Below, piece after piece: positions 2,218 to 63,116 of a stretch of DNA of 64,000 bases. Location: contig JAHREC010000021.1 in NCBI GenBank assembly GCA_020081605.1, forward strand, positions 124,001 through 188,000. Reading direction: 5' to 3'. Under the pieces are notes generated by a model, which was not told where the DNA came from, searched no databases, and was given only the letters and a program-made list of their open reading frames with translations. Positions within the stretch are counted from its first letter, which is position 1. Every line of letters begins with the position of its first letter. Both the position numbers and the translations under genes were made by a program. Origin of the DNA: Albifimbria verrucaria (Eukaryota > Ascomycota > Sordariomycetes > Hypocreales > Stachybotryaceae).

Positions 2218-5200
2218 CTAATTGACGTTTAGTCGCCCCGTCGTGATCGCAAATTTGATCGCTGCCCTTACTGCACGCAGATCCGGTGTCCAATCGTCCC
2301 CGTCAGTTGCGGCTTTTCCTCCAAGAAAGTAGGACAAATTCCCCATATATGTGCTGGTAGCTTGCCGCAATATCATGCGTTGTGCTGTCCATCTTATGCA
2401 GGTGAATAGGAAGTGTTCAATCGTTTCTGGTGCGCATCCGCAGGCACATTGCACGGACGCCGCCGCTCGGATTCGATGAAGGTATGTGTTCAGTCTGGCC
2501 ATGCCTGTCCTCATCTGAGCAAGTACGCTTGCCTCCCTTCGGGTAAGCGAGTCATATAGCTTCTTCGTGTGCTTTCCGGGTAGAGCCTTGTCAATTCTCT
2601 TAGAGAACTTGCCGACCTTTTCCGGTAGGGTGTTGTTGGCCGGTAAGCTTGATTTTGCCAAGTTCAGAGTCGTTGACCGTGTCGCCGGGAACTGTGCCTG
2701 TGGCACGGAACCTTCTTTGGTCATCCTTCGTGCTTCTTCTTTTGCCCTGTGCAGCAATTCATTCTCATCATCGGATGGGAGCCATCGAATGGATATCTTG
2801 TTTCCCGCTCTTTCAATGTTTCTATTGCATCATATGTGCACCGAATGTACTCCTGCCCCGCCGGTTGTCGAGGTTGTAGGATCGTAAGCATCGCGCCCTT
2901 GTTGCGTGTATAGAGGATGATGTGGTGGTTACAAATTTCTGGTAACATCCTTCGTGTCACGTATGCTATTGCCGCCAACTCTCCGGTATGTGGATTCTGC
3001 TCCGTCCCCATGCCAAGGGTGAAGGCGAACGCTTCATCTCTCGAAACATCCCTCAGATGGCGTGGGAACTGCACCACCCTCCGACGCCTACTACACCGTT
3101 CCTACAGGAGCTGCTGACTGCCACGCCTACAACTCGACGTGGGTCTGTAAGCGGAGTTCTCCCTCTCTCTAGCTCCTCAGGCACCGCTGGTACTCTTTCT
3201 TCCCAGGGTGCTAAGGTGAACGGTTGGATGGTCTCCATCTTCTCCAAAGACGTCGCATTGTAGGCAATCGCCACCCTTTGGAACGGCGATTGGTGTCCAT
3301 TTTTCCATACTCGCACAATCTTAGACGCCTCTCTCCGTAGTGGGTTGCTTTCTGGTAAGGTATGCAGCTCAACCCACAATTTCAAAGCTTTCCTCCAGTG
3401 TCGTTCCCGGACGCTGCTGATGTGGGCTTCGGCCTCGGCCACACTAGCCGCCACCGTCACGAAGGCTCCTGTGATGGCTTGTGCTCCGATCTTTTGCACT
3501 CGGTCTAGCATTTTCGCTCTCTTGTCGATGCACGCATGCCTCCAGACGTTGGATGCATAATCGACCACCGGAGCGACCGTGGCCGTGAAGAGCTGACGTG
3601 CTGTCGCGGGAGACAAGCCCTTAAGCCTCTTCAGTGTCATCGCCGCCTCGAGTCCTCTCGACGCTGCCCTCGCGATATGCTCCTTGTAGTTTAGTCGTGA
3701 ATCCATGATGAGCCCCAATACCTTGATTTGAGGTTGGGGTCGTACTTTCTGTCCTTTGATGGAAAACGATTCCGTATCGTTCTTGTGCTGGCTCTTTGTG
3801 AAGTGAATGATGGCGGTTTTATCTGCTTCAAAGGTGGCGCCGCTACGTTTCTCCCAGTCGAGTGCTTGCTCGATTATTCTCTCGATTCCTGCTCGGTTGT
3901 CTCGCGCTGTTGGCCCACACACCCAAGCCGTAAAGTCATCGACAAATGCAATCGAGCCTCCATCCCAGGCGATTCGCCGCTGTACCAAGTCGGCATTGAA
4001 GAATAAGAACAGGATGGGTGATAGAGGAGAGCCTTGCGGAAGTCCAGCCTGTGGCAGGAGCTGTGTCACTGATGCTTGTCCGTTTACCAGGATGTTGGCC
4101 GTGCGTTGAGAGCAGAAGGCATCTACCCAGCGGACAATCCCTTCGGGTATACCTCTCGCCCTCATCCTTTGCAGCAACCTATCTTTGAAGACGCCGTTGT
4201 ATGCTCCTTGACATCAAAGCTGATTAGACTGAGTACTCGTTTTGCCCGCCAGGCGTAGCATATCTGTTCTTGAAGTAACATGAGCGCTTGCTCCGCTGAT
4301 CGCTGTTTACGAGCTCCGAAATGGTTTGCTGGCAGCAGACCATATGTCTCTGCCGCATAGGATATCCTCTCCGCCACCGCTGATTCGAGGACTTTGCCTA
4401 GAGTGGACAATAGCGAGATCGGCCGCCACGCTTTTGCGATGGTGTAGTCTGCTTTGCCCGGCTTCCTTAGTGGTATTATCTTGGCATGCCGCCACTGTGA
4501 CGGTAGCTCTCCTCTCTCCAACGACAGTTGAAAGATCGCCATGACCCAGTGCTTGACCACCGGCCACACTTGTTTCCACACCACCGCAGGCAATCCATCT
4601 TCTCCCGGGGCCTTCCATGATTTTGTCTTGAAGAGCTGCCGTTCGACTTCCTCCAACGTGATGGCAGGCATCGGCACTGCCGACCCTCGCTGTGGTCTCG
4701 AGCCCTCATCCTCGATATTGGCTGGAAGAGGAGGAAAGAATATGGTTAGCAGTTCTTGAGCTTGCTCTGCTACGTTGCTTGTCTGCGATCCGTCTGCTCT
4801 CTTCAGTTGTGGCACCCTGCCAAAAGCCGAACTGTCGCCCGACTTCATGTACTTGGCTGCTTTCCAGATGTTGTCATTGTCGGCGAGAAACCCTTCCCAA
4901 TGAGCTTTCTTTTGTTGTCGGATGGCATCATGGTATTGCTTCGCTGCACCCTTGGCTTTCTCTTCCATCTCGCTGTCTCGAGATCCTGACCGTCTGCAGG
5001 CCCTTGCCTGGTTCCTCCAGTACGTATGTATTTTCCGCAGCTGAGTGAGGTCGGACGTCCACCATCGCTTAGCGTACGGTGATGGTTTTGAGACCGGCGT
5101 CAGTGCGTGCACCGCCTCCGACACCACAGACGTCAGCGTATCCGTGTCTTTCTGTACATTTCCGACTATGCGGACGGTGCTTAGTGCGCCTTTGATCCTC

Positions 5201-6033
5201 TCGTTAACTTCGTGCCAGGGCGTGTTCTTCAGTAGAATTCTTGGTTGATGTTGTGGGGTTGGGACAGCAATGTCAAAGATGGTGTCAATCGTACGGTGAT
5301 CCGATCCATGGTCCGTTTCGTGAATGCCGCACCTGATCACGTTTTCAGCCAACTCCTCCGATGCTAGGACGAGGTCGATCGTCGTCTCGTAGTTTTTATC
5401 TTGACACGTCTTGGTACAGCGAGGCAGGAGACTCCTGAGGCCGAACTCGCTCATAAGGTCGATGATACGGTCCGCTTCGCCCTGCCGATCCAGGGAAACA
5501 TCATCACCACCCCACAATTGGTCGTGGCGATTAAAATCTCCGGCAATTACTACCTCGACTGGTCGATCTGCTTGGAGTCTTGTGTCAAGGATGAGTTTGC
5601 GTAGGGTACTACACATCTCCTGTAGTGCTTCCTCATCTTGCCCCGCCACGTAGACCGAGGCGACCAGGACGATCCTTTGGTCCAGTCGAATGACGGCTGC
5701 TATCAGATCGGGGAAGTCGGTATGTATTTGATCTGCTTCGAGATCCCTGTTGGCCCATAGCATGCTTCGGACCGCCCATTTCCTTTCGCTCCACGTCTGC
5801 GGTGCCATTTTCGTCCATCTATGATGCGTCATGGGTGTCGTTATGAGACGTCCACCTATTTTTCTTGCTTGCGGTTCTTGAATCGTGATTATCGCAGCAT
5901 TTTGCAGGTCCTCGTCATTCATTAAACTGTCGTATATCGTTCCCTGCTTTTTGACGTTGAGTTGTACAATCCTGAGTGAGTTAATCATGGCGGGTGGGGA
6001 AGAGCTTCCGGCAATTCCTGCTGAACGATTCAT
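2218..6033 (-). pseudogene. LINE ORF2: endonuclease, reverse transcriptase, RNase H (frameshifted)
   Basis: The N-terminus is an exonuclease/endonuclease/phosphatase domain (QLNV start, [13 protein letters not shown] and GSDHR motifs; about 6010-5260). Next comes a reverse transcriptase with a QGSPLSP block and the catalytic FVDD (about 4700-3600), then an RNase H segment with HTGELAAI (about 3030-2900). The Tad-type C-terminus has a Cys/His cluster around CACGCAPETIEHFLFTC. The frame is broken three times: near 4206, 3077 and 2773. Each break is restored by one extra base in a short G/C run (on the minus strand GGG for GG, GGGG for GGG, CCC for CC). The function would be target-primed reverse transcription in the nucleus. 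As written the protein is non-functional, but the damage is slight and the motifs are intact. Confidence 0.85.
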
Positions 6034-7243
6034 GCGGGCCTCCGCAGGGCACGAACTTCACGATCTGTTCGTCGCATGTGTTGTGGTGGTGCCCTTCTTT
6101 CGCACATCTTCCGCACATCTGGGGCTTGCGACATTGGAATGCTTTGTGTCCGATCTCCTGGTAGTTATAGCATTGCTCGGGTCGGGCTCCGCGATCAAAT
6201 GGCCCCGTATATACTGATTCGCCTTCTGCGTAGAAGAAACCCTCCTGTAGGGCCTTCCTTGCATCTGACGCTTTCTTCAGGTAGACAACCATCGATCCAT
6301 ATGCTTTGGACGTGTCGCGTTTGCTCAACCATGCCACCTTTGCTACCTGCATATCGTTTTCCCGACTGAATGTCTCAGCCGCCTCGGGTCGGATGCCATC
6401 AAACTCATCGATGACTGCCATTCGGTTGACGTTATCTACCTTGATGGGGTACAGCTCATCCCGGAGAACTCGAGCTCCACGAGGAACCTTAGTCTCTGCC
6501 ACTCGCTTGACCAGCGAGTGCTCATCTTCGTTGCGGCAGGCGATCCTGATACGGTGTTCATTCTTTTGATCCTTGGTCACAGCTCGGCATCGCCAGTTAG
6601 ACTGGCCCAGCTCGGTCCTGACTTCTGTTTCAATGAGGGTCCGGATTGCGCTCGGAGCAGCGCTGTCGCTCTCAGCATTTTCCGCTCGGGAGACATCAAT
6701 CGTACAGTAAAGGGTATCGCTCCAGTTGGATGGTCCTGTCCTGAGTGACGACAGAGGCCGCACGTTACTCGCGTTGCTGTCCGGCGGTGTGCAGGCCACT
6801 TCGGCGTACGAGGCCCTCGGGCTTGACTGGGATAGAGCTATGGTCGTGGTGAGTGCTTCCAGCTGTTCGCGTACAGTTTTGAGTTCATCTTTAGTGTCTC
6901 GAAGCTCTTGTTGCGAACTGCCCAATTGTCCATGAAGTTGGCTGATGAGTTCCCCTTGCTTCTTCGACGCGTCTTTCAGGTCCTTCAGCTCCTCGAGCAC
7001 TCTCAGCAGAAGTGCTTTTCCGGTTTCGCCATCGGTACGGCCTTTCTGTATGTTTTTGGCATGCTCAATATCAGTATCAGCTGGCGGAACTCGTATCGCA
7101 CGTGTCGTTCGCTTCTTCCCCTTCTGGGTCGGCGACGTTTCATCGCCCCAGCCTGCCTCCTTCGCCTTCACGCTCGGCTTCACCAAACGCGTCGGTCGCG
7201 TTGGCGTCGTGGGGCCGCACGTCCCACCACGATCTCCCCGCAT
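5981..7243 (-). CDS. LINE ORF1, Gag-like zinc-knuckle protein
   Basis: About 420 residues, upstream of ORF2 and overlapping it by about 50 bp in another frame, as in many LINEs. The N-terminal third is basic, followed by a coiled-coil-like stretch rich in Leu/Glu/Gln (about residues 70-150). The C-terminus carries zinc knuckles. The middle one is canonical ([14 protein letters not shown]). The first reads [14 protein letters not shown], with the second Cys replaced by Tyr, a change one G-to-A step would give. The third ([15 protein letters not shown]) lacks its first Cys. The family role is RNA binding and particle formation for retrotransposition. The start could be an upstream ATG near 7271. 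Loss of knuckle cysteines suggests it is no longer fully active. Confidence 0.8.
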
Positions 7244-7291
7244 CCGAATCGGTCATCAGATCCGCCATCTGAAACCAACCCCACAAACCAC

Positions 7292-7338
7292 TGAAACAAT
7301 AGGACTAAAACTATCTACGCACCCTATATCGGCAATCT
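7292..7338 (+). repeat. 47-bp exact direct repeat, right copy
   Basis: Identical to 1792-1838 over 47 bases and located immediately beyond the inferred 5' end of the LINE. It is consistent with a long target-site duplication. Confidence 0.7.
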
Positions 7339-7394
7339 CTGAACCCTCCGTTTGAGTCTGTAGCGTCTATATTTATACAGTTTTGGTGCATAAC

Positions 7395-8695
7395 TAGCCA
7401 AGTGGGTGACATAAGACATTGCGCACCAAAATCATACTAAAATCCCTCACGCCCACACACATACCTCCTGTCCAATTGAACAGCTAATTTACTAGCAAAT
7501 TCAGACAACTATTTCGCGCTCTACCAAGCAGTTATTCTGCCTCTCATATCAATTATATCTTGCAGCCGCTTCGGCATAGATTCTATCCACCTATTTATTG
7601 TCTCTTGCTTTAAACTATCCCAGCCTTCCTCCGTAAGATCACGAAGGGTATCTCTATCCCAATGGGCGTATTTCCGGGTATATTCCTTCGGGTATAAGCC
7701 AGCAGTTCTCAATTGAGAGAGATCCGGGCTTGAAGGGCAATTGAAGTAGTTCTTGAGGCTATGATCTTCCTTCCACGTTCGTACGGGGTTGGCTTTGCTG
7801 GGCCCGTGGCTGCTATCGCTGTTTTCTTCCAGTACGAAGCAATAGCTTTGTTCAATCCACTTGCTAACGTAGGGCTCTAATATCTCTCTTTCGTATACAG
7901 CCTGGGTTATCTTGCTGTTACTGTTGCCGGAGTTATACCAGACGAGAGGGCTCTTGAAGTTCCAGCCAATAGCCCCCAGCCGTGTAATTGCTTGAGCTGC
8001 TTATCCGTAGGCTGCTTCCGCTCTTGAAGGTTTTACGGGATTCATTCGAGTGCCTCTCTTCCTTGCAATAAGGGCTCTGCCCTGGTCTCCGTAGCCGAAG
8101 TGGTACTCGTCCGAGAATAATACATTATGCCAATCCTCCGGCTGAGGCCTTAGGGTAAGAGCCCTCTGTGCGTACGCAAGCCGGCGGTTAGCTTCAGCTT
8201 CGCTCTTGTAACTAGCTTGGGCAGCTATCCGTTTGTAAATATTATGAGAGGCCAGCCTCCGGCTAATCGTACGGCTACAGACCTCGGCGTTAACGCCGGC
8301 TTCTGTGGCTGCAGCTGTGAAAGGCAGCTCCTCTGCCTTAAAGCCTTCCTTCTCGTAAAGGTCATCTATCTTATCCAGGTCGGCTTCCTTAAGCTTCCTC
8401 TTCTGACCGCGGCTATCAGGAATGTTAAGCTTAGTGTGATACGTACGGTTGGATTCCTTATTGAGGATATAGTATCCGGAGCGGCGAGAGACCCCGAAAT
8501 AAGTAAATAGGTCAGTTTTATGAAAGGAAAGCCCTTTTGCCGTTATAAATTCAAAAGCGCTGCAAATTCGAGCCTTTTAGGCGTGCTGTGTTGTATGCCG
8601 ACCATCGCGAATGTGGTGTTGAAAGGGGTTGAAATTAGCTGTGTGTGTGGGCATGGGGATTTTGGTGTGCAATGTCTTATGTCACCCGGTTGCTA
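7395..8695 (-). mobile_element. Tc1/mariner-superfamily DNA transposon, decayed
   Basis: Terminal inverted repeats are visible. The left end reads tagccaagtgggtgacataa, continuing through gacattgcgcaccaaaatc. The right end read in reverse gives tagcaaccgggtgacataag, then acattgcacaccaaaatc. The arms run about 45-55 bp with a small internal length difference. Each arm abuts a TA (7395-7396 and 8694-8695), the target dinucleotide duplicated by this superfamily. The total of 1.3 kb is the usual Tc1/mariner length. A short extra inverted pair, ttttggtgc at 7381 with gcaccaaaa at 7423, lies around the left end. Confidence 0.85.
7521..8590 (-). pseudogene. Tc1/mariner DDE transposase, frameshifted
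   Basis: Read on the minus strand, the frames together show a fungal Tc1/mariner transposase. There is a helix-turn-helix region (about 8540-8230), the first catalytic block FSDEYHFGYG (about 8130), a GWGAIGWN-like block, and a late block with LEENSDSSHG and YFNCPSSPDLS (about 7830-7730). The tail ends QETINRWIESMPKRLQD. The block that should carry the last catalytic Glu (family pattern SPIENxW) reads SQLRTAG, because one base is missing near 7712. Another frame change follows an in-frame stop near 8010. It is not functional as written, so the copy could move only with enzyme supplied from elsewhere. Confidence 0.8.
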
Positions 8696-9130
8696 GCTTC
8701 CTCTTTATATTAAACATATGCTGAATGTAAACTGACCCCCACACAGTGTTATTTATCAGATAATGCACTGGGTACATGAACTACTTGAATTGTGACCTGG
8801 CCGAGAAACAGGCACTCTAATGTCACGGCCAATATACGCTTCACATCATCAGGAAATAGCACCACGGTGTATAACTCTCATCGTACACTTCATGATATTG
8901 TCATACATAGTACATAATGCTCGAGTTAAGCTTATCCTGCTATTGTGTGTCGCCCACCGGATTCCTCTGGCTGGCCACATAGCCTTGTAACGTGGCACAA
9001 ACCACAACCAATGAGAACAAGATGACGTGCATGGCTGCATGCCTCACAGCCTCATTACCCCTCATCCATTTCATCCACAGGAGAACGCATATCCTTATGG
9101 GCACAAACACGAGCATCTCACGCAGCTGCA

Positions 9131-9819
9131 ATGGAGATACTCGGCGTTGCCGCGAATGTGATCGCAGTTGTGGATCTTTCTGCCAAGATCTCGTCCCTTT
9201 GTGTCCAATATGGTAGGGAGGTAAAAAATGCCGCTGCCGACATCGAGGGACTGCGCAAAGAGGTTGCCAGTTTGCAGGGAGTAACCAAGGCGGTCCAGGA
9301 TTTGTCAACCAGATCAGATGGAAAGAAACTCGGCAAATCGCAGCTAGAAACGAATTTTAGCGAATGTGTGATGCTGCTGAAAACCCTCGAGCTCAAGCTC
9401 ACGCCTTGCACGGCGCGAAAGGTAATAAGCAAAATAGGCTTCACTACGCTGAAATGGCCATCTCAAAGTAAAGAAGTGGATGATCTGGTTCGCCGATTCA
9501 GCAAATATGTTCAGGCAATCGCGCACACTCTTCAAGTAGAGCAGACGTAAGACCCCGATCACCGTTGTGTATGGCGGTTTAACCCTAACAAAGACTCGTT
9601 ATAGAAGCACCCTCCTCCTTGTGGAGCGGAATACTCAGTACGGACCGACGGACAGTATTGAGGAGTTTGCCCGTGGCAGAAAGTGCATCCTGTGACTCTA
9701 GAGCCGATCAGAATTACTCTACTTGCCTGCCAAACACTTGGACAATAGAATTTGGTTCAGCCATTGATGGCCGCATTAGAACCCATAAATATTGCGCCAA
9801 AATGAATTCCCAGAAATAA
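9131..9819 (+). CDS. short SesA/NACHT_N-like domain protein (NLR N-domain without NACHT)
   Basis: Two exons, 9131-9546 and 9627-9819, joined across an 80-bp intron (donor gtaaga, acceptor gtggag), encode about 202 residues. The N-terminus MEILGVAANVIAVVDLSAKI, followed by a helical region rich in Leu/Lys and LKWPSQSKEVDDLVRRF (about residues 110-125), is the pattern of the fungal NACHT_N/SesA family. Exon 2 continues with the linker that normally leads into a NACHT domain (LPVAESASCDSRAD, then STCLPNT), then stops without a P-loop. The correct splice phase and the linker argue for a real exon. In STAND proteins this domain is the cell-death or signalling effector part. It is either a truncated NLR or a free-standing effector. 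It converges on the NLR that ends 93 bp downstream. Confidence 0.7.
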
Positions 9820-9912: not shown

Positions 9913-12900
9913 TCACCGATGCACTAGATCGTGAGATTCGCCATAACATCGAATACCTCGGGTGACGCACTCGTCGCACAAGCACAAGCATCCACTGCCA
10001 CATAAACTGCAAGTGTAGCCGCAACCTTTCCGGACACTCAGCGTACAGGCATCGCACCAAGCGGCTTCCTGATCAAAGGGAGTAGGTACAGTATCATTGG
10101 GAGTAGGGTCATCAGGGATACGACTGCCAGCCTTTTCAGCACGTTGCACCAGAAGCCGAAGGACCCCATAATTGTCACTGCGCCGCGCCCACCATATCAG
10201 ACTCCGGCCGACGCCGCCTTGCTCCTCCACGGTCGCGACTCTAGCGATGAGAAGCTTTACCACATCTAGGTGACCATTCGCTACCGCAGCAAACAATGGT
10301 GTTGAACCCCTCCAATCCCTGGTGTCCGGGTCGACGCAACCTTCTGAGAGCAAAACTTGCACCACTTGTTGTAGCCCATACCTAGAAGCCCAGAAGAGGG
10401 CTGTGCGGCCAAGGTCGTCCTGTTTGTTGGCATCAACACACGGTATTCCTAACAATATCTTAACCACCTCGATATGTCCGTTCGAGGATGCTGCAATTAA
10501 TGGCGTCCATCCGTCGTTGGTTGCAATTGCAATGTTAGCCCCCTTGTTAAGAAGTAGCTTGACTACCTCGATATGTCCCTTCGAGGATGCTTCAATTAAT
10601 GGCGTCCATCCGTCGTTGGTTGCAATTTCAATGTTGGCCCCTTTGTTAAGAAGTAGCTTGACTACCTCGATATGTCCCATCCTGGATGCTGCATAGACTA
10701 GCGTCCATCCGTTGTTGTCTATAATATTTATGTCGGCCGCCTTGTCGAGAAGTAGCCCAGCAAGCTCGATGTGCCCCTTTCCTAACGCCGCTTCCACCAC
10801 ACCCATGGTGATCGTGATCTGGCCCCCATCTGTCGAGAAGAAGTGCCATGACTGCCTCGCCGTTCTTCTCGTTGCTTGTCGTGGCCCTCACCACATCCTT
10901 GGTGATGGTGATCTGCCTACCCCTGCGGCGGAGCATAAGCGCCATGATCTCGGCGCCATTCTCCTCGTTACCTACTGCAGCCCTCACCACATCCTCTGTG
11001 ATGGTGATCTGATCGCCCCGTCGGTCGAGAAGAAGCGCCATGACTGCCTCGCCATTCCTCTCGTTACCTGCTGCGGCCTCCACCACATCTTCAGTAATCG
11101 TGATATGGTCACCCCATTGGTCGAGAAGAAGCGCCATGACTGCCTCGCCATTCCTCTCGTTACCTGCTGCAGCCTCCAACACACCCTCGGTGACAGTGAC
11201 CTGGTCGCCCCATCGGTAGAGAAGAAGGGCCATCATCCGTTCGTCAAACCGCTGTGCTATCGTCTTCATCGCCTCCGTGGTAATCGTGATCTGCCTACCC
11301 CTGCGGCGGAGCATAAGCGCCATGATCTCGGCGCCATTCTCCTCGTTACCTGCTGCAGCCCTCACCACATCCTCTGTGATGGTGATCTGATCGCCCCGTC
11401 GGTCGAGAAGAAGTGCCATGACTGCCTCGCCGTTCTTCTCGTTACCTGCTGCAGCCTCCAACACACCCTCGGTGACAGTGACCTGGTCGCCCCGTCGGTC
11501 GAGAAGAAGCGCCATTATTCGTTGGTCAAACAGGTGTGCTATCATCTTCGCCGTCTTCTCGGTGATGGTGATCTGATCGCCTGGCCGGTCGAGAAGAAGC
11601 GCTATGACTGCCTCGCCGTTCTTCTCGTTACCTGCTGCGGCCTCCAACACACCCTCGGTGATCGTGATCTGGTCGCCCCGTCGGTCGAGAAGAAGCGCCA
11701 TGACTGCCTCGCCATTCCTCTCGTTACCTGCTGCGGCCTCCAACACACCCTCGGTGATCGTGATCTGGTCGCCCCATCGGTCGAGAAGAAGCGTTATTAT
11801 TTGTTCGTCGAACCGTTGTGCTATCCTCTTTACCACACCCTCGGTGATCGTGACCTGGTTACTCAGTCTGTTGAGAAGAAGCGCAATCACATCCCTGCCA
11901 CTCCTCGAATTATTGTCTGCTGCCCCAACCACATCCTCTGTGATCGTGATCCCGTCACTCCGTCTGTCCAGAAGAAGCGCCATAATTTCCTTGCCATTCA
12001 TTGAATTGGTCGCTGCGGCCTTTACTACGTCCTTGGTGATCGTGATCTGGCTGCCCCGTTGATTGAGAAGCAGTGTCATTATTTGTTGGTCGAACCGTTG
12101 TGCCAGCGTCTTCACGGCCTCTTCAGTAATCGTGATATGGTCGCCCCATCGGTAGAGAAGAAGGGCCATCATCCGTTCGTCAAACCGCTGAGCTATCGTC
12201 TTCACGGCCTCCGTGGTAATCGTGATCTGCCTACCCCTGCGGCGGAGCATAAGCGCCATCACTGCCTCGCCGTTCTTCTCATTGCTTGCCGTAGCCTTCA
12301 CCACACCCTCGGTGATGGTGATCTGGTCACCCCGTCGGTCGAGAAGAAGCGCCATGACTGCCTCGCCATTCCTCTCGTTACCTGCTGCAGCCTCCAACAC
12401 ACCCTCGGTGATGGTGATCTGGTCACCCCGTCGGTCGAGAAGAAGCGCCATGACTGCCTCGCCATTCCTCTCGTTACCTGCTGCAGCCTCCAACACACCC
12501 TCGGTGATCGTGATCTGGTCACCCCGTCGGTCGAGAAGAAGCGCCATGACTGCCTCGCCATTCCTCTCGTTACCTGCTGCAGCCTCCAACACACCCTCGG
12601 TGACAGTGACCTGGTCGCCCCGTCGGTCGAGAAGAAGCGCCATGACTGCCTCGCCGTTCTTCTCGTTACCTGCTGCAGCCTTCATCACACCCTCGGTGAT
12701 GGTGATCTGGTCACCCCGTCGGTCGAGAAGAAGCGCTATCATTCGTTCGTCAAACCGCTGAGCTATCGTCTTCATCGCCTCCGTGGTAATCGTGATCTGC
12801 CTACCCCGTCGGTCGAGAAGAAGCGCCATGACTGCCTCGCCATTCCTCTCGTTACCTGCTGCAGCCTCCAACACACCCTCGGTGATGGTGATCTGATCGC

Positions 12901-15383
12901 CCTGTCGGTCGAGAAGAAGCGCCATTATTCGTTGGTCAAACAGGTGTGCTATCATCTTCGCCGTCTTCTCGGTGATGGTGATCTGATCGCCTGGCCGGTC
13001 GAGAAGAAGCGCCATGATATCCGCGCCATTCTCCTCGTTACCTGCTGCAGCCCTCACCACATCCTCTGTGATGATAATCTGGTTGCCTCGTCGGCCGAGT
13101 AGCAATGCCACAACTTCCTTGCCATTTTGCTCATTTCCTGACGCGGCCTTGATCACCTCTGCGGTAATAGTAATCCCGTCCCCCAACGATTCAGCAGGCG
13201 TGCCATCACCCGTTCATCAAAAGAATCCGCTATTGCCATCACAAGCCCCTCAGTGATCCTGACTTGGACCTTTCTCCAGTCGAGAAGAAGTGCCATGAGT
13301 TCCGTGCCATTCATCCAATTCTGCGCTGCAGCTTTCGCTACCTCTTCGGTGACAATGATCTGGTCTCCCCCTTTCGAGAAGAAGCCTTATCACTTCCTCG
13401 CCATTCGTCCAATTCTGCATTGCAGCCTTGACTACTTCTTCGGTAATACTAATCCCGTCCCCACGCTGGTCGAAAAGTACCTCCATGACTTCCTTGCCAT
13501 TCTTCTCGTTTCTTGCTGCGGCGATTTGTATCTGCGCACGTACCATTGAACCACTCTTTTCTCGACTCAGAAGACATGTTATGACGTCTTTGTGCCCTGA
13601 CCTTGCTGCCTCCTCCAAGGGTGACACCCCGTCACTATCGATATAATCAGTGTCGACATACTCGGGCGTTGATGCCCGGTAGTTTCGTGAGTCGAGAGCA
13701 AATCCCACAAGACTGGGAATTCCCCAGTGGCCGGCAACGTGGAATATGGAAAACAGTGACGGAATGGACTCATCGAAACCACATCTGTAGATGGCCAACC
13801 AATATTCTCGACAGTCGGAATGTATCCTAAAGAATGTGGCTTCCGACTTCTTAATTATGAACTTTGAAAGGGCCATGTGTGCATGGTCAGCCCAGAACCG
13901 GGCTGAGTAAGATAGAAAGCTGTCGTTTGATGCCATGTTGGGCTCCTGATTAAAGCACCAGATGAGCTGATCGACGCAGCGGTGCGCAAAGCCGGCATGC
14001 GCCTCAAGTCTGTTGATGAAGCAATAGGCATCAGGCCCAACCAGGAAGTCCTTGACGGATTGATGTAGGAGGAGCACCTTATCGTCCTGGATTATCACCA
14101 TTAGACGACAAGATGCGACCTCGTCGCGAGTGGATTGGATCCGGGTTTCCTCATCCTTTTCCTCGTGCAGCTGACAAGCTACAGAGAGCTCTGACAGGCT
14201 GAGTGGTCGCAGGGACGCCACGACGAAGCTCAAAATGCATTTTACTGTATCCATTTCACCTCTCTCCGGCTCAATGGCTGTGTCGAGAAGCCTCTTATAG
14301 AGGAGTGAAGTCCTTTGGGTAACGCCTGTAGGTAGTTGGCAGCATCTTTTGAAGCTACCCTATCCAACTCTTCGCAGGCCAAACCGACCCACAGGAAGGT
14401 TCCTTCTGCTTTGTCCTTGAGAGCGTTTGTAACCTGATTTGTGACATGTTTTGAGTAGTGTTTTCTTTTTGTAAGGACAGCTACCTTTTCATTGATAAAT
14501 CGCTGAATGTCTCTCTTTGATTCTCGGAATGAAGCTAAATTTTTGTTTAGGAATTCGCTAAGATATTCACCTATCTCAGGATAGGGTCGACTAGTAATCA
14601 ATATCCGAATATTTGAGGGAGAGTTGCAAGGGCTGAAGCTCTGCCGTAACTCCTCAATAAAATATCTCGGGATTCTTGATCGCATTCGTCCAGGGCGTCA
14701 ATAATGCAATACTTCCGACCGGTTGTCCTATCTGCGGTAATATCGATGAACATCGCCCAGAGAGCATCGAACGATTTGAAAAGTTCCGGGCCGCGGTCTG
14801 CATACTTCGGCAGCACATACTTGAGAAGTGACGAGTGTTGTTGGACGAGCTGCCAGAGAAGCCCTCTGATGACGGACGTAGCTGTCTTCCGCTTGTCAAA
14901 ACTCGAGTCACAGAAAAAGTAGCTGAGAGTCTTTCCGTCCGTGGCTGAGAAACTATTTGAGAGCTCCTCGGCAAGGAAGATTGACATGATCGATTTTCCC
15001 GTGCCTGGATTCCCATACAGCCATAGGATGTCGGTGGCTGGTGTCAATCCTTGGCCTGTACCTAGCCAGGCAACGAGTTCTTCAGTCTCGAGAATCCATT
15101 CACATGTGCCGGCAGCGCGATTGCCCTTTTGCGCTTTAGGTCGTTCTTATCCTCGGCCGGGTCAGTCAGAAAGAGGTCGCGGCGACAATCTTCGGGTCCA
15201 AGACTATCGCTCGGCAGATGCATATGGAAGCTCCTGTAGACATGGAGTAGCAAAGTCGTCAAACTTCTGGACTTCATTGATCAGGGTTATGGCCACTTAC
15301 GAATTCGTCACTGTGCCCTGAGCAATGACAGTAGTCCGGTCGTTCGCGAATTGGTTAGCTATCGGCGTTTTAGACGATGCCAT
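9913..15383 (-). CDS. NLR (STAND): motif exon - NACHT - ITIT repeats - ankyrin - ZZ-like finger; frameshifts
   Basis: Exon 1 (15383-15301) encodes only 27 residues with a motif NQFANDRTTVIAQGTVT. A 67-bp intron (gtaagt..ctacag) is followed by the linker DLFLTDPAEDKNDLK and a NACHT domain with P-loop GNPGTGKS (about 15000) and Walker B CIIDALDECD (about 14700). A winged-helix-like region with LLLHQSVKDFLVG follows (about 14060). Then come about 30 repeats of 30-32 residues, six or seven ankyrin repeats (about 10780-10180), and a C-terminal finger with CDAC, CSLC, CDEC and a final His (about 10050-9930). Frame breaks lie near 15127, 14657, 14303, 13367, 13180 and 10823, each repaired by one or two added bases. 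NLRs of this type sense a ligand through the repeats and oligomerise through NACHT. The first-exon motif suggests it triggers the divergent HeLo protein. Confidence 0.85.
10830..13560 (-). repeat. coding array of about 30 ITIT-type repeats (96- and 90-bp units)
   Basis: This lies within the NLR. The long unit (32 residues) follows QITITEGVLEAAAGNERNGE then AVMALLLDRRGD. The short unit (30 residues) has TIAQRFDERM in place of the GNE-NG segment. I count 26 units in the main frame plus about four more degenerate ones at the N-terminal end. Several consecutive long units (about 12300-12650) are almost identical in nucleotide sequence, which indicates recent expansion or gene conversion. The arrays of fungal NLRs are the ligand-recognition part, and high identity between units is typical of hypervariable arrays under selection. 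I do not assign a named Pfam family. Confidence 0.85.
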
Positions 15384-15530
15384 TGTCGGGTGCTTTATCA
15401 ATCCCTGATTTTATGCTGATTTTGAGGTTCAGCCTTGCTTGAGGTGTTACATGCAAGACGGTAGTGTTCAATCTCAGTGCAGATGAAGGTTAAGAATTGG
15501 AATGCAGTCTTGGTCAAAGGCGGTGGGACG

Positions 15531-16003
15531 ATGTTACAGTATTCTGCCAGTCTCGTGAGAGTGCCTTGACAAAGAGTGGCTGGTCAAGGTTCATTACTGT
15601 CTCATGGACATATTTTAATTACCATGCGATGAGAACACACACACACACACAGTGTCTATTATGCTCGGTGACTTGCGTTAGAAGGGCCACTATCCGTTAT
15701 GTACATGTTCCCTTCCATCATCATTATGTCCTAATCTCGCCATAACCCATGTGCTATCCACTTGTCCATTTCCTGCCTTCCCTCTTCTGTCATCTCGTCT
15801 TACGAGACCTCCAGGTCTATCTTGCAACAGCGAGGCTGCTTAAAGTCTATTCTTCAAGTGTTCAGGCGATGAGAACAGTGCGACACAGTATTGGCTTCCG
15901 AGTGGTTAGATGGGATGCAGGTGAACGACCATACAGTGCCAATGTCACAGCATTCCGCAAGTCTCGTGAGAGCGCCTCAACAAAGAGTGGCTGGTCAAGG
16001 TTC
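15531..16003 (+). repeat. 62-bp imperfect direct repeat pair
   Basis: 15531-15592 and 15942-16003 are the same 62 bp with seven differences, six of them transitions (for example gtgccttgac against gcgcctcaac). The truncated LINE copy sits between them. Without that insertion the two units would be about 171 bp apart. Confidence 0.65.
15626..15877 (-). mobile_element. 5'-truncated LINE copy with 12-bp target-site duplication
   Basis: 15638-15865 matches the 3' tail of the LINE (1898-2124), starting with the same (CA)n run and ending at ttcag. It is bounded on both sides by gcgatgagaaca (15626-15637 and 15866-15877). This is the signature of target-primed insertion with early 5' truncation, in the same orientation as the longer copy. 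About 228 bp, non-coding. Confidence 0.85.
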
Positions 16004-16914
16004 GCTTGTGAGAATCTGGCTCTGATGCTATTGGCCAACTATGGGCATAGCGTAATTCCATCACTTTCTGCTGGTAGGGAAACAACGATAAGCTAATGGT
16101 GGGATGGGCTTATGCTAGCTGTCAGGTGACGTTGGCGTAGGTTAATAGCAGAGGCGCAGATAATCGTACCTCGAACAGGGCGTAAGTAGGGCTTTTTCTT
16201 TTCCTTTCTTTTAAATAAATGAATGAATAAAAGTAAATACAATATAATTAAATTAAAACTCTTGTGTTCATTTTCAAGAGATAAACCCCAAAAACAAGAT
16301 GAGCCACGTTTGGGACACAAATTGTGGTTTGTTGGCTGACAGCAGTGGATGCTGAGAGGGCATAGTAGTTCGCAAAGAATTAGAGTGTGCCCAACGCCAT
16401 GGTTGAAAGTGGCTGAAAGATGTGATCATATCATCCGATATTATTGTAGACATGTGGCAAGAGCATTGTCACAAGGTCTCATTGGGGACAGTTGCCTAAG
16501 AAGCGGGTGCATTGTACAGATTCGTTGGCGATTAGTTAGCAAGCTGCGCCATGCTGAGATCCCAGACCTCATACCAAAGGCGGCTTTCGTCGAAAGCTTG
16601 CCGCCACATCCTGCGTTCGACGGTCACATGCTGAGTTATTTTTTATTGTGATCCAATAGCCATGTCAATGCGCTGTTTCGAATCCATTTGAAGAAGTATT
16701 TCTTCAATCCATTGCGCCCAATACCTAACGCGACTCCCAGATCCCCACAAATTTTCCACTCTCTGACCATAGTGTCGTGGGACAACGCCTGCATTTAGTC
16801 TCACTGAGCGATACTCAGCTTATATGACGCGCTGGTCTTCGACATTCGAAACACGATTAATACTTGGCACTTCCTTGGGAGTTACCCCTGTCATTTTCCT
16901 AAGACGATCCCAAT

Positions 16915-17745
16915 ATGGAGGTTGGTGGTCTTGTCGTGGGCGTTGCCGGCCTGGCTAGTGTCTTTAACAATGTTCTTGATTGTTTCAACTACGTCTATAT
17001 GGGTAAATCCTTTGGTTCTAGGTTTCAGACAAGTCTGCTGAAACTTGATAATGCAAGGTTGAGGCTATCGCGATGGGGAGATGCAGTGGGCCTCAGCGGT
17101 AGCGTTGACGACGCGACGTCTTTGCCATCAACCATTGCGTCGGAAGCTGATAGACGCCAAGCTGAGAAGATGCTCGGCCAAATTCTAAAGCTCTTTGACG
17201 ATGCCAAAAAAATCTCAGACGAGTTCAAAGGTGGAAGGGATCCTGATGAACAGGGCCTCTTGGTACACAATGAGCAAACCGGCTTGGATCCGATGACAGC
17301 GTCCCTTCATCAGAAAATGGTACAGCTGTCAAGCAAGCGGCAAAACCGGACGCCCCTGACTAAAAAGGCGAAGTTTGTCTTGTACGAGGAGAAGCACCTG
17401 AAGGAATTGATCGACAACATCACAAGCCTTACAAAAGACATTGTGGAACTCTTTCCAGCAACTGAAAAGCAGCAGCAGCTTTGCGACAATGAGGTGTCGG
17501 AGTTCAGCGAAAGCTTCCGTGTCCTGGTCAACACAGCTACTGGCATAGATGAGCTTTTGGCGGCAGGATTGTCGGAGGTTCTGAATAAAGTCGTGAGTCG
17601 TCCACGTTTGCCACATTATCTTTCCGTATCACTTACATCGAGCTAGAACAATTTAAATACCTTTCACAACGAGAGGAGTGTTATACAGCAACAGGGAACC
17701 AGCACAGGAGGCAGGTTTGATATGAAAGTTGAAATGCCACGTTAG
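16915..17745 (+). CDS. HeLo-domain cell-death effector with C-terminal amyloid-like motif exon
   Basis: Exon 1 (16915-17592) encodes a 226-residue HeLo domain: the hydrophobic start MEVGGLVVGVAGLASVFNNV, the block FQTSLLKLDNARLRLSRWGD, and the late block HLKELIDNITSLTKDIVELF are all family signatures. A 54-bp intron (gtgagt..gctag) leads in phase 0 to a short exon (17647-17745) of 32 residues with core NTFHNERSVIQQQGTST. HET-S has the same plan: an N-terminal HeLo domain that inserts its first helix into the plasma membrane when a C-terminal amyloid motif is templated. Here the tail is short, with one motif. It resembles, ungapped, the first exon of the NLR transcribed divergently 1.5 kb away, which suggests a sensor/executor pair. 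No frame damage is seen. Alternative splicing past exon 1 would give an unrelated 17-residue tail. Confidence 0.8.
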
Positions 17746-60994: not shown

Positions 60995-61748
60995 GCAATA
61001 TAAGCTGATTGAAGAGTCATCGGGCTGGAAGATGTGAAAGACGTGATTATGGGCTATGAAGAGCGACATTCTGTTTCTATCTGACCTCCTGGGCTTTCGT
61101 TTGATTATATATCTCATTTCTTCAAACCATACCTCTGCGTGATTCAATCTGATTACAACCATCTCGCGCTGAGGGGCAAGGGGCGGAGAGAAGGCAACAT
61201 GGTCCACAGCGTGACCCTCACTTACACGCCAACAGCGCACTAATACAAGAAAGGAATTAACAAAACGGTGGGATCCCCACAAAGAGCCCCAGAGCTTCGG
61301 GACTTTTCTTCCGTTTTATTAAAACCTTGCGATAGCGGTGAGCTAACACGAATAGGGAATTAACAAACCTCTGGATCGGAGGGGAGGGAGCCAGGAATTT
61401 TCAATCACATATCGCTATATGAGACTTCTACCCCACGTTCCAGCCAACATCTCCTACCCTATACTTCGAGCATTGGTTCCCTACGTAAATTGTCTGTTGC
61501 TGCAAGTTTTCTAACCTACGGTACTGTATCATTTGGGTTCGGATGCCTCTTTATTTAAATTTCTCTGGATGTGGAGGGGCAGATTTTTTTTTTATTTATT
61601 TTTGTCTTGGTCTTATTTTACTGTAATATTCTTTTTCATTCAGGTACTCAATCTTGCAAAGCCGCTACAGATACCGCGTCACGAGGAAATTTGCTGGGAC
61701 AGTCTAACGACTGACTAAGGAATAACAACAACCTGAACCATCGGCACA
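60995..61748. other. intergenic region, likely promoter of the ankyrin gene
   Basis: No gene. A T-rich tract (61584-61602) and pyrimidine-rich sequence lie within 250 bp upstream of the ankyrin gene start. The start context is ggcacaATGTCC. Confidence 0.4.
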
Positions 61749-63116
61749 ATGTCCCAGTTACTGAATCTTCCGTTAGAGCTGAGGCTCATGATTCTGGAAC
61801 TTCTAGACGTTCCCGAACTGGCTCTTATGCTATATTGTGGAGTAACGATACGTAATTCCATCGGCAAGCTCATGAAAGGGTCAATGAAAGTCAACGCAGT
61901 CGATAGGTACGGCCGAACGCTACTTTGGTACGCGGCTCAAAGAGGCCACTCAGTTGCCGTTGGCTTTCTTACCAGCATCGATGGTCGGGATTTAAATCTG
62001 GCATGCCGAAGGATGTGGACCCCATTGATATTGGCTGCAGCGATTGGCCACGGACTGATCGTGAAGAAGCTCCTGGACACAGGAGATGTGGATGTGAATG
62101 CGGTCGACCTTTTCTATGAGACGGCCTTATCATATGCAGTGAAGATGGATCATTATGGTGTCGTCGACCTTCTCCTAGGCTCGGGGTTAGTGGTCTGGGC
62201 TAGAGGAAAGTACCCGACTCCATATCATATTGCTATGGTTCATAATCGGGCAGATTTTGCCGACAGATTTCGAGATTTGGAAGCCATGGAAAAGCTGGAT
62301 GTAAATCTGGCAGACTTTCTACAGCAGACGGCCCTATCAGTCGCAGCCCAAAAGGGCTACAAGACCATCTTGAAAAGACTTTTAGATACAGGAGGGGTGG
62401 ATGTGAGTGTGGCCGACGCGAATGGGGAGACGGCACTATCATATGCGGTGAAGATGCATCACGATGATATCGTCGACCTCCTCCTAGGCTCGGGAAATAT
62501 AGCCTGGGGACAAGGGAAATTCCCGACACCATTCCATATCGCAGCAACTCATGGTTGTACCAAGTTCGCCGAACGATTTGCGCATATGAGAAATATGAAC
62601 CCAAATGTTGTGGATGGTTACGGACGAACGGCCTTGTCAATTGCAGCCGAGATGGGCCATGATGCGATGGTCAGGCTCCTAGTCAAAATGGAAAAGCTAG
62701 ATTTCGACTTGGCAGACCAGTTGGGCAAGACGCCATTATCTTACGCCGCGATATGTGGTCATGAGGCCATTGTGAGGATACTGCTGGATACAGGGAAGGT
62801 AGATGTGAACGCACAGTGTGATTTCGGACATACAGCATTGTCATGGGCAGCTTTGGCTGGAAAGAATACCGTGGTCGAGCTGCTCATTAAAACAGGAGGG
62901 GTGGACTTGAATTTGGTAGATTATTGGCGTCGAACGCCTCTACTGTGGGCCGCTATGAATGGCCGAGAAACAGTTGTGAAGAGACTCCTAGACACAAGGC
63001 GGGTGAATTTGAGTACTACAGATGAGCATGGCATATCGCCGCTGGGGTATGCGTTGATGGGTGGTCATGATAGCATCATTGAGCTTCTTAAGAGAGCAAG
63101 CCAAGTCTTGGATTGA
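61749..63116 (+). CDS. F-box-like / ankyrin-repeat protein
   Basis: 455 residues, single exon, no damage. Residues 4-30 (LLNLPLELRLMILELLDVPE) form an F-box-like start. Twelve ankyrin repeats follow, for example YGRTLLWYAAQRGHS, MWTPLILAAAIGHG, GRTALSIAAEMGHD, GKTPLSYAAICGHE and RRTPLLWAAMNGRE. The pair TALSYAVKMDHYGVVDLLLG / PTPYHIA recurs as TALSYAVKMHHDDIVDLLLG / PTPFHIA about 100 residues later, an internal duplication of two to three repeats. Such proteins probably link ankyrin-bound partners to SCF ubiquitination; the partner is unknown. The frame ends at TGA 63114-63116. Confidence 0.75.
   Translation: MSQLLNLPLELRLMILELLDVPELALMLYCGVTIRNSIGKLMKGSMKVNAVDRYGRTLLWYAAQRGHSVAVGFLTSIDGRDLNLACRRMWTPLILAAAIGHGLIVKKLLDTGDVDVNAVDLFYETALSYAVKMDHYGVVDLLLGSGLVVWARGKYPTPYHIAMVHNRADFADRFRDLEAMEKLDVNLADFLQQTALSVAAQKGYKTILKRLLDTGGVDVSVADANGETALSYAVKMHHDDIVDLLLGSGNIAWGQGKFPTPFHIAATHGCTKFAERFAHMRNMNPNVVDGYGRTALSIAAEMGHDAMVRLLVKMEKLDFDLADQLGKTPLSYAAICGHEAIVRILLDTGKVDVNAQCDFGHTALSWAALAGKNTVVELLIKTGGVDLNLVDYWRRTPLLWAAMNGRETVVKRLLDTRRVNLSTTDEHGISPLGYALMGGHDSIIELLKRASQVLD

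Follow-up and report, generated by a model that had tools for sequence, protein, structure and literature searches.

Introduction

In the HET-S/NWD2 system of fungi, ligand-induced oligomerisation of a NOD-like receptor (NLR) has been proposed to let the motif at its N-terminus act as a template for the effector (PMC4344463; PMC3321046). Only a few families of such fungal amyloid signalling motifs are recognised, with four counted and five sets used in one account (PMC12261475), and separate motif classes have been suggested not to cross-seed and thus to act as separate channels (PMC4518210). Here, we describe a locus of the ascomycete Albifimbria verrucaria (contig JAHREC010000021.1, positions 124,001 to 188,000 of the forward strand; this whole stretch of 64,000 nucleotides is called the window), where an NLR gene and a gene for a HeLo-domain effector lie head-to-head, with their starts 1.5 kb apart, and encode a common short motif at the N-terminus of the receptor and the C-terminus of the effector. 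We consider it very likely that the two genes constitute a cell-death system in which, as in HET-S/NWD2, a receptor acts on an executioner, the two being linked by a single-copy motif that lies outside the PP, sigma, PUASM and GDQN families and is related only very distantly, if at all, to the HET-s-related amyloid motifs (HRAMs). This motif is probably a new private channel for cell suicide.

A short motif common to receptor and effector

The receptor peptide NQFANDRTTVIAQGTVTNSSFHM and the effector peptide NTFHNERSVIQQQGTSTGGRFDM align without gaps over 23 residues, with 10 identities and a BLOSUM62 local score of 50; when the NLR peptide was shuffled 20,000 times, this score was never reached, the best shuffle attaining 42. 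A preliminary description of this DNA had rightly counted 10 identities in 25 ungapped residues, the best local match being the 23-residue one, and had proposed the HET-S/NWD2 plan of a single motif placed at the NLR N-terminus and the effector C-terminus, a proposal that the shuffles, the relatives and a paralogous NLR in the same genome (at C11) now support. The head-to-head gene pair on which it built is likewise borne out by the gene models and Pfam. The exons and motif copies are as follows, with P0001 and P0122 denoting database proteins introduced below:

16915 to 17592, plus strand: exon 1 of the HeLo effector, with its ATG at 16915 and the HeLo domain (PF14479)
17593 to 17646, plus strand: 54-nucleotide intron ahead of the tail exon (GTGAGT...TAG), placed by splice signals and by comparison of the spliced product with P0001
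17647 to 17745, plus strand: exon 2 of the HeLo effector, the 32-residue C-terminal tail, compared with its homologues
17656 to 17724, plus strand: effector copy of the shared motif, NTFHNERSVIQQQGTSTGGRFDM, from alignment with the NLR peptide
15384 to 16914, no strand: divergent intergenic region of 1.5 kb between both start codons (15383, minus; 16915, plus)
15301 to 15383, minus strand: NLR exon 1 (83 nucleotides), with its ATG at 15383 and the bulk of the receptor motif copy; the C11 paralogue keeps ATG, donor and motif
15234 to 15300, minus strand: NLR intron 1, 67 nucleotides (68 in the C11 paralogue), from splice signals and conservation
15221 to 15233, minus strand: end of the receptor motif copy (most of SSFHM) in NLR exon 2; P0122 continues likewise

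The effector gene encodes 258 residues after removal of its one 54-nucleotide intron, and its first exon matches the HeLo family PF14479 in Pfam with an E-value of 2.5e-47. Its closest database protein among the matches listed, P0001 of Fusarium oxysporum f. sp. vasinfectum, also has 258 residues; the last 32 are identical in the two proteins, and the 13 substitutions between them all fall within residues 11-207. This agreement of the spliced product with P0001 in both length and tail supports the intron model, and with it the earlier claim that the gene ends in a 32-residue exon. At the sequence level, P0001 matches the N-terminal domain of HET-s/HET-S (7.2e-38), and its AlphaFold model has a fold like that of the same domain (2wvq, 2wvo and 2wvn; template modelling score normalised by target 0.88-0.91). 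The mean predicted local distance difference test score (pLDDT) of the model is 78, with values under 50 at residues 232-258, as expected if the motif tail is disordered. A separate tail exon seems to extend more widely in this HeLo group: a read-through pattern at the end of exon 1 (the unspliced GT(G/A)AGT donor translated as V-S), composed after the HeLo sequences had been seen, is present in 16 of the 120 HeLo matches listed. A search of the genome at E<=10 located the effector tail at this locus only.

The NLR spans 15383 to 9913 on the minus strand, with exon 2 starting from 15233. Its splice sites derive from splice signals and conservation, not from transcripts, and the splice model is supported because the motif match runs on across the exon junction. 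Each copy of the motif had been thought to occupy an exon of its own, which holds for the effector; in the receptor, the last five motif residues sit on or across the junction at intron 1 and extend into exon 2.

Recurrence of the motif in relatives

The relatives compared here are the best 120 of 239 HeLo matches and the best 120 of 610 NLR matches. Eight of the listed HeLo proteins (P0001-P0007 and P0009) bear the tail. They belong to F. oxysporum f. sp. vasinfectum, F. sarcochroum, Purpureocillium lilacinum (two), Diplogelasinospora grovesii, Byssothecium circinans, Alternaria atra and one JGI contig, the fungi concerned being Sordariomycetes and Dothideomycetes (taxonomy looked up for five species). 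The tails come in two forms, a Q form (P0001, P0002 and P0007) and an M form (P0003-P0006 and P0009), those of P0003 and P0004 being identical. When the receptor copy of the motif, hereafter r0, is scored against the listed HeLo C-termini, P0002 (51) and P0001 (50) lead, followed by P0005 (35) and by P0003, P0004 and P0006 (34 each), with an unrelated tail, P0053, coming after these family tails at 30. None of 5000 shuffles equals the match of the window r0 to P0001 or to P0002, and 12, 4 and 11 of 5000 equal those to P0003, P0005 and P0006, respectively; the matches to P0007 (233/5000) and P0009 (382/5000) are weak. An r0 profile run against the same 120 tails places P0001 (2.2e-4) and P0002 (3.2e-4) first, then P0007 at 0.084 and the next protein at 0.53.

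On the receptor side, the effector tail scores above 26 against the first 60 residues of just one listed NLR relative, P0122 of Byssothecium circinans (38). Its N-terminus, SNTRSIIAAQGTVQDSTFNI, is the only one of this kind among the 120, and the motif there runs directly into the NTPase (nucleoside triphosphatase) domain. The P0122 motif scores 38 with the Q-form tail of P0001 (2/5000 shuffles), 39 with that of P0002 (1/5000) and 37 with that of P0007 (1/5000). A profile of six tails, built without P0001 and run against 122 N-termini, ranks C11 (0.021), the window NLR (0.024) and P0122 (0.056) ahead of the next at 0.89, none of these E-values reaching the 0.01 usual with HMMER; an earlier five-tail profile gave 0.012 for the window, 0.13 for C11 and 1.4 for P0122. 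Within the genome, r0 is detected at E<=10 in two places only, the window NLR and its C11 paralogue. P0122 and the Byssothecium HeLo protein P0006 probably share one contig, because the contig of each is given as 745,651 bases. The check proposed earlier, co-occurrence of the motif in neighbouring NLR and HeLo genes of other genomes, is borne out only in part, by one other species in which both genes probably lie on one contig.

Because the alignment score beats the shuffles, the tail recurs, the paralogue keeps the motif and an NLR from another species has it, we regard the reading of the window genes as an NLR/HeLo pair joined by a common short motif as well supported. Both termini consist of few residues, many of them N, Q, S or T, which could in principle produce a resemblance by chance or compositional bias. 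The shuffles and the profile ranking disfavour this, as do the recurrence of the motif in relatives and its absence from almost every one of the 120 listed NLR N-termini and from the majority of the 120 listed HeLo tails, and we hold such an origin to be extremely improbable.

Several results weigh against a receptor/executioner system of this kind in the window. First, the r0 of P0122 scores 17 with the P0006 tail from its own species, a value equalled by 1863 of 5000 shuffles. Second, apart from the pairwise matches given above, the M-form tails show little connection with receptors: when four of them (P0003, P0005, P0006 and P0009) are combined in a profile, it fails to rank any of the three r0s at E<=3, and the reverse search with the r0 profile ranks no M-form tail at E<=5. 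Third, the five-tail profile gave an unrelated NLR an E-value of 1.5, barely behind that of P0122. Fourth, a composite motif query against database NLRs of 651-2072 residues returned 60 candidates with r0 in none of them at E<=10; this query has low power for distant r0s, although an annotated near-identical copy should have surfaced. Finally, the frame of the window NLR is broken in about six places, of which two (the first and the fifth) are common to the C11 paralogue.

Two further classes of termini were observed among these relatives. P0121, an NLR of Clonostachys rhizophaga that is 78% identical to the NLR query, has a quite different short N-terminus, KYYKNIALYENSRAQIGDVIKI, and looks as if its signalling motif had been swapped. 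Among the HeLo relatives, P0033, P0034, P0042, P0079, P0082, P0094, P0115 and P0120 carry a second class of tail, approximately TFNN-x-NSKI-x2-Q-x5-IHGGQT, which is not of the PP type and in which Pfam finds no motif in the two cases examined (P0033 and P0120). The likeness of the P0033 tail to the window tail is faint (68/2000 shuffles; 117/2000 for the M form), and this class is possibly another undescribed signalling motif.

Relationship to known motif families

At E<=10, Pfam detects no motif family in either window peptide, and the PP-tailed control P0029 does give PF17046. A scan of NCBIfam produced no relevant match, and the motif profile has a single match among PDB sequences (E = 3.5), which we regard as chance. 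Four known families were tried and set aside: PP, as the NxGxQxGxN core is absent and PF17046 matches neither window peptide; sigma, as the GSGxQF and GGTQN boxes are absent and no sigma family appears among the Pfam matches; PUASM, as FxGxGxQxxGxGxF is absent and the effector is a HeLo rather than a PNP_UDP protein; and GDQN, as NxxxGxQYxxxGxGDQNxVSxxxxQxN is absent. The earlier impression that the motif fits neither HET-s/HRAM nor PP exactly is upheld by the empty Pfam result, the missing PP pattern and the partial presence of the HRAM pattern.

The HRAM pattern was scored with G fixed at position 19 (P0007 being aligned with one gap, and P0003 and P0004 being identical). All 11 motif sequences are hydrophobic at position 8; all eight effector tails have L5, five of the eight have N3 and five T10, and Q or M occupies position 16 in seven and position 18 in all eight. 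The identity of an HRAM to HET-s can be lower than 10-15%, Q can occur at 16-18, and the motif is frequently followed by a stretch containing G and aromatic residues (PMC4518210); in most window-type tails TGG and F or Y come next. PF11558, for its part, detects only 38 of 155 HRAM proteins according to the same source (PMC4518210). The motif could, then, be a divergent single-copy HRAM instead of a family of its own, a reading that we find rather doubtful. Position 10, hydrophobic in HRAMs, is N or T in 11/11 sequences; the R/K preferred at 15 is found in 0/11, with I or V in its place; and the receptor copies have no N3 and no clear hydrophobic residue at position 5 (A, A and K). Instead of the two-repeat plan, one copy is seen by eye in 8/8 tails, a count made with no dedicated search for a second repeat. 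PF11558 has no match at the window locus at E<=10 and matches three other places in the genome.

At one such place, C33:2655000-2664000, an NLR gene and a HeLo gene of HET-s type (PF11558, 7.9e-21) lie head-to-head, and we count this pair in the same divergent layout in favour of a receptor/executioner system in the window. Four of our motif sequences compared with the r0 and r1-r2 of the C33 pair fared no better than shuffles (best 414/5000). The C33 NLR has, by eye, a HET-s-like N-terminus and WD-like repeats, and its frame is apparently broken at the P-loop.

Taking these comparisons together, we take the window motif to be a fungal amyloid signalling motif that is either new or strongly diverged, a new family being somewhat likelier than a divergent HRAM. 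In its widest form, this proposal is of a further single-copy motif family, seen so far only on HeLo effectors of Sordariomycetes and Dothideomycetes, that may tie two NLRs with diverged sensors to one executioner; we advance it tentatively, judging its chances to be somewhat short of even. We found no description of the motif in the passages of main text consulted on amyloid signalling and PP/HELLP. It could equal the NLR34 class of PMC9815663, known here by description only.

The paralogous NLR, frame changes and selection

The C11 paralogue (C11:60000-69999, about 2400-6369 of that stretch) agrees with the window NLR in start codon, splice sites and motif, differing at three of the 23 motif residues and by one extra base in the intron. 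Between 15877 and 14679, blocks of 150 columns are 96-99% identical in the two loci; identity then falls to 92% and thereafter, down to 12786, to 78-90%. The part comprising promoter, r0 and NTPase would thus have been conserved alike or recently copied, with the sensor halves having diverged, and the lower identity at window positions under about 14.6 kb suggests conversion or recombination. The pooled ratio of nonsynonymous to synonymous substitution rates (dN/dS) between the two NLRs, from three in-frame segments with 383 synonymous sites (a fourth, containing gaps, was excluded), is 0.34, indicative of purifying selection. Near the C11 NLR we found no copy of the effector tail; this receptor could use the window effector (C18) in trans. 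Upstream of the C11 NLR, frames like the reverse transcriptase of long interspersed nuclear elements (LINEs) are discernible by eye.

The reading frame of the window NLR shifts near 15145, 14653, 14302, 13370, 13190 and 10830. For the shared change near 15145 a spliced reading was tried and rejected, as no intron could be fitted by eye. These breaks raise the alternative that the pair is decaying, with the NLR a pseudogene and the HeLo protein acting alone or driven by the C11 NLR, and the lack of a near-identical NLR in the database length range searched (best match 78%) would agree with it. C11, however, keeps an open frame through the second, third and fourth window breaks, a run of 664 codons, with at least one further change of its own, and the dN/dS value likewise speaks against decay. 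Moreover, at least four of eight HSP70-like places in the assembly, one of the eight being a weak match, also switch frame between consecutive profile stretches, with the DNA overlapping or abutting and leaving no room for an intron (C8 at 3.626 Mb, C36 at 0.776 Mb, C15 at 4.866 Mb and C10 at 5.394 Mb; three of the four switches were seen again in a repeat search). Because these genes do so, single-base errors (indels) look common in this assembly, and we judge decay unlikely, with assembly error the likelier cause of the NLR breaks. Broken genes in this genome call for careful reading.

Receptor architecture and genomic surroundings

The remaining features of the NLR, all on the minus strand, are:

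14601 to 15146, minus strand: NPHP3_N-type NTPase (NACHT-like) piece (PF24883, 2.5e-35)
13253 to 14359, minus strand: winged-helix region and one ankyrin repeat (both under the Pfam cut-off) and the first DUF7104 repeats (Pfam)
10649 to 13213, minus strand: DUF7104 repeat array (PF23397; Pfam and profile matches)
9916 to 10887, minus strand: ankyrin repeats and Cys-rich C-terminus (Pfam)

This half of the receptor had been described as "ITIT-ankyrin-ZZ". The ITIT repeats correspond to DUF7104 and the ankyrin repeats are confirmed; the ZZ finger falls away, with no Pfam match in the Cys-rich C-terminus at E-values up to 1. That the receptor half is not of the WD40 type was correct, and DUF7104 is common in this setting, being present in 107 of the 120 listed NLR relatives. 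At least 22 of the 61 DUF7104 matches listed for the genome fall in the window NLR locus, taken as a whole. Our literature search under the name DUF7104 returned no papers.

Just downstream of the NLR, a plus-strand frame at 9026-9547 of the window contains a PigL_N (HeLo-like) domain (7.8e-07). LINE-type endonuclease/reverse transcriptase frames and a match to a Tc-type transposase (3056-8576, minus strand) also adjoin the NLR, and near the end of the window there is an unbroken ankyrin-repeat frame of 459 codons (61737-63113, plus strand).

Proposed mechanism and comparison with known systems

By the precedent of HET-S/NWD2 (PMC4344463; PMC3321046), we infer the following course of events for the window pair. 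The DUF7104-ankyrin half of the NLR would sense a ligand and the NTPase domain would drive oligomerisation; the r0 motifs clustered in this way would fold into a small cross-beta template, which would convert the C-terminal tail of the effector, homologous to r0 and disordered until then; and the converted effector would, through its HeLo domain, attack and permeabilise the fungus's own membrane. Amyloid formation by the window peptides is a prediction here, and the two proteins might instead interact through the motif by other means, such as ordinary strand pairing. Set against this, the worked-out systems of the same plan are described as signalling by amyloid templating (PMC5485727; PMC9815663), and we consider a non-amyloid interaction quite improbable. 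A further motif class on HeLo effectors would widen the signalling code, and can be put to the test with a pair of short peptides; should both NLRs feed the one effector, they would form a receptor network with a common executioner. Such pairs may escape annotation, because the short receptor exon failed to surface in the protein search.

Among the systems already described, HET-S/NWD2 of Podospora anserina, which uses an HRAM, is comparable in having a HeLo effector with a C-terminal motif and a neighbouring NLR with that motif at its N-terminus, and the homologue P0001 of the window effector resembles HET-S in both sequence and fold. However, the window effector has one motif copy where HET-S has two, the window motif is without R/K15, and the NLR has DUF7104 and ankyrin repeats in place of WD40. 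HELLP/SBP/PNT1 (PP, PF17046) shares with the window pair a single motif copy on a HeLo-type effector, and many listed relatives of the window HeLo protein have PF17046, whereas both NxGxQxGxN and PF17046 are absent from the window motif. The GDQN pair of F. oxysporum Fo5176, as reported in PMC12261475, is a parallel case of a new motif emerging from one Fusarium NLR/effector pair, with a different pattern and a SesA-type effector. Finally, the NLR34 class (PMC9815663, Table 1), compared by its description only, is similar in comprising 28-residue N-termini of ascomycete NLRs that are hard to place in known families; it differs in that the description there reports no effector partner, whereas the window motif comes with a neighbouring HeLo protein.

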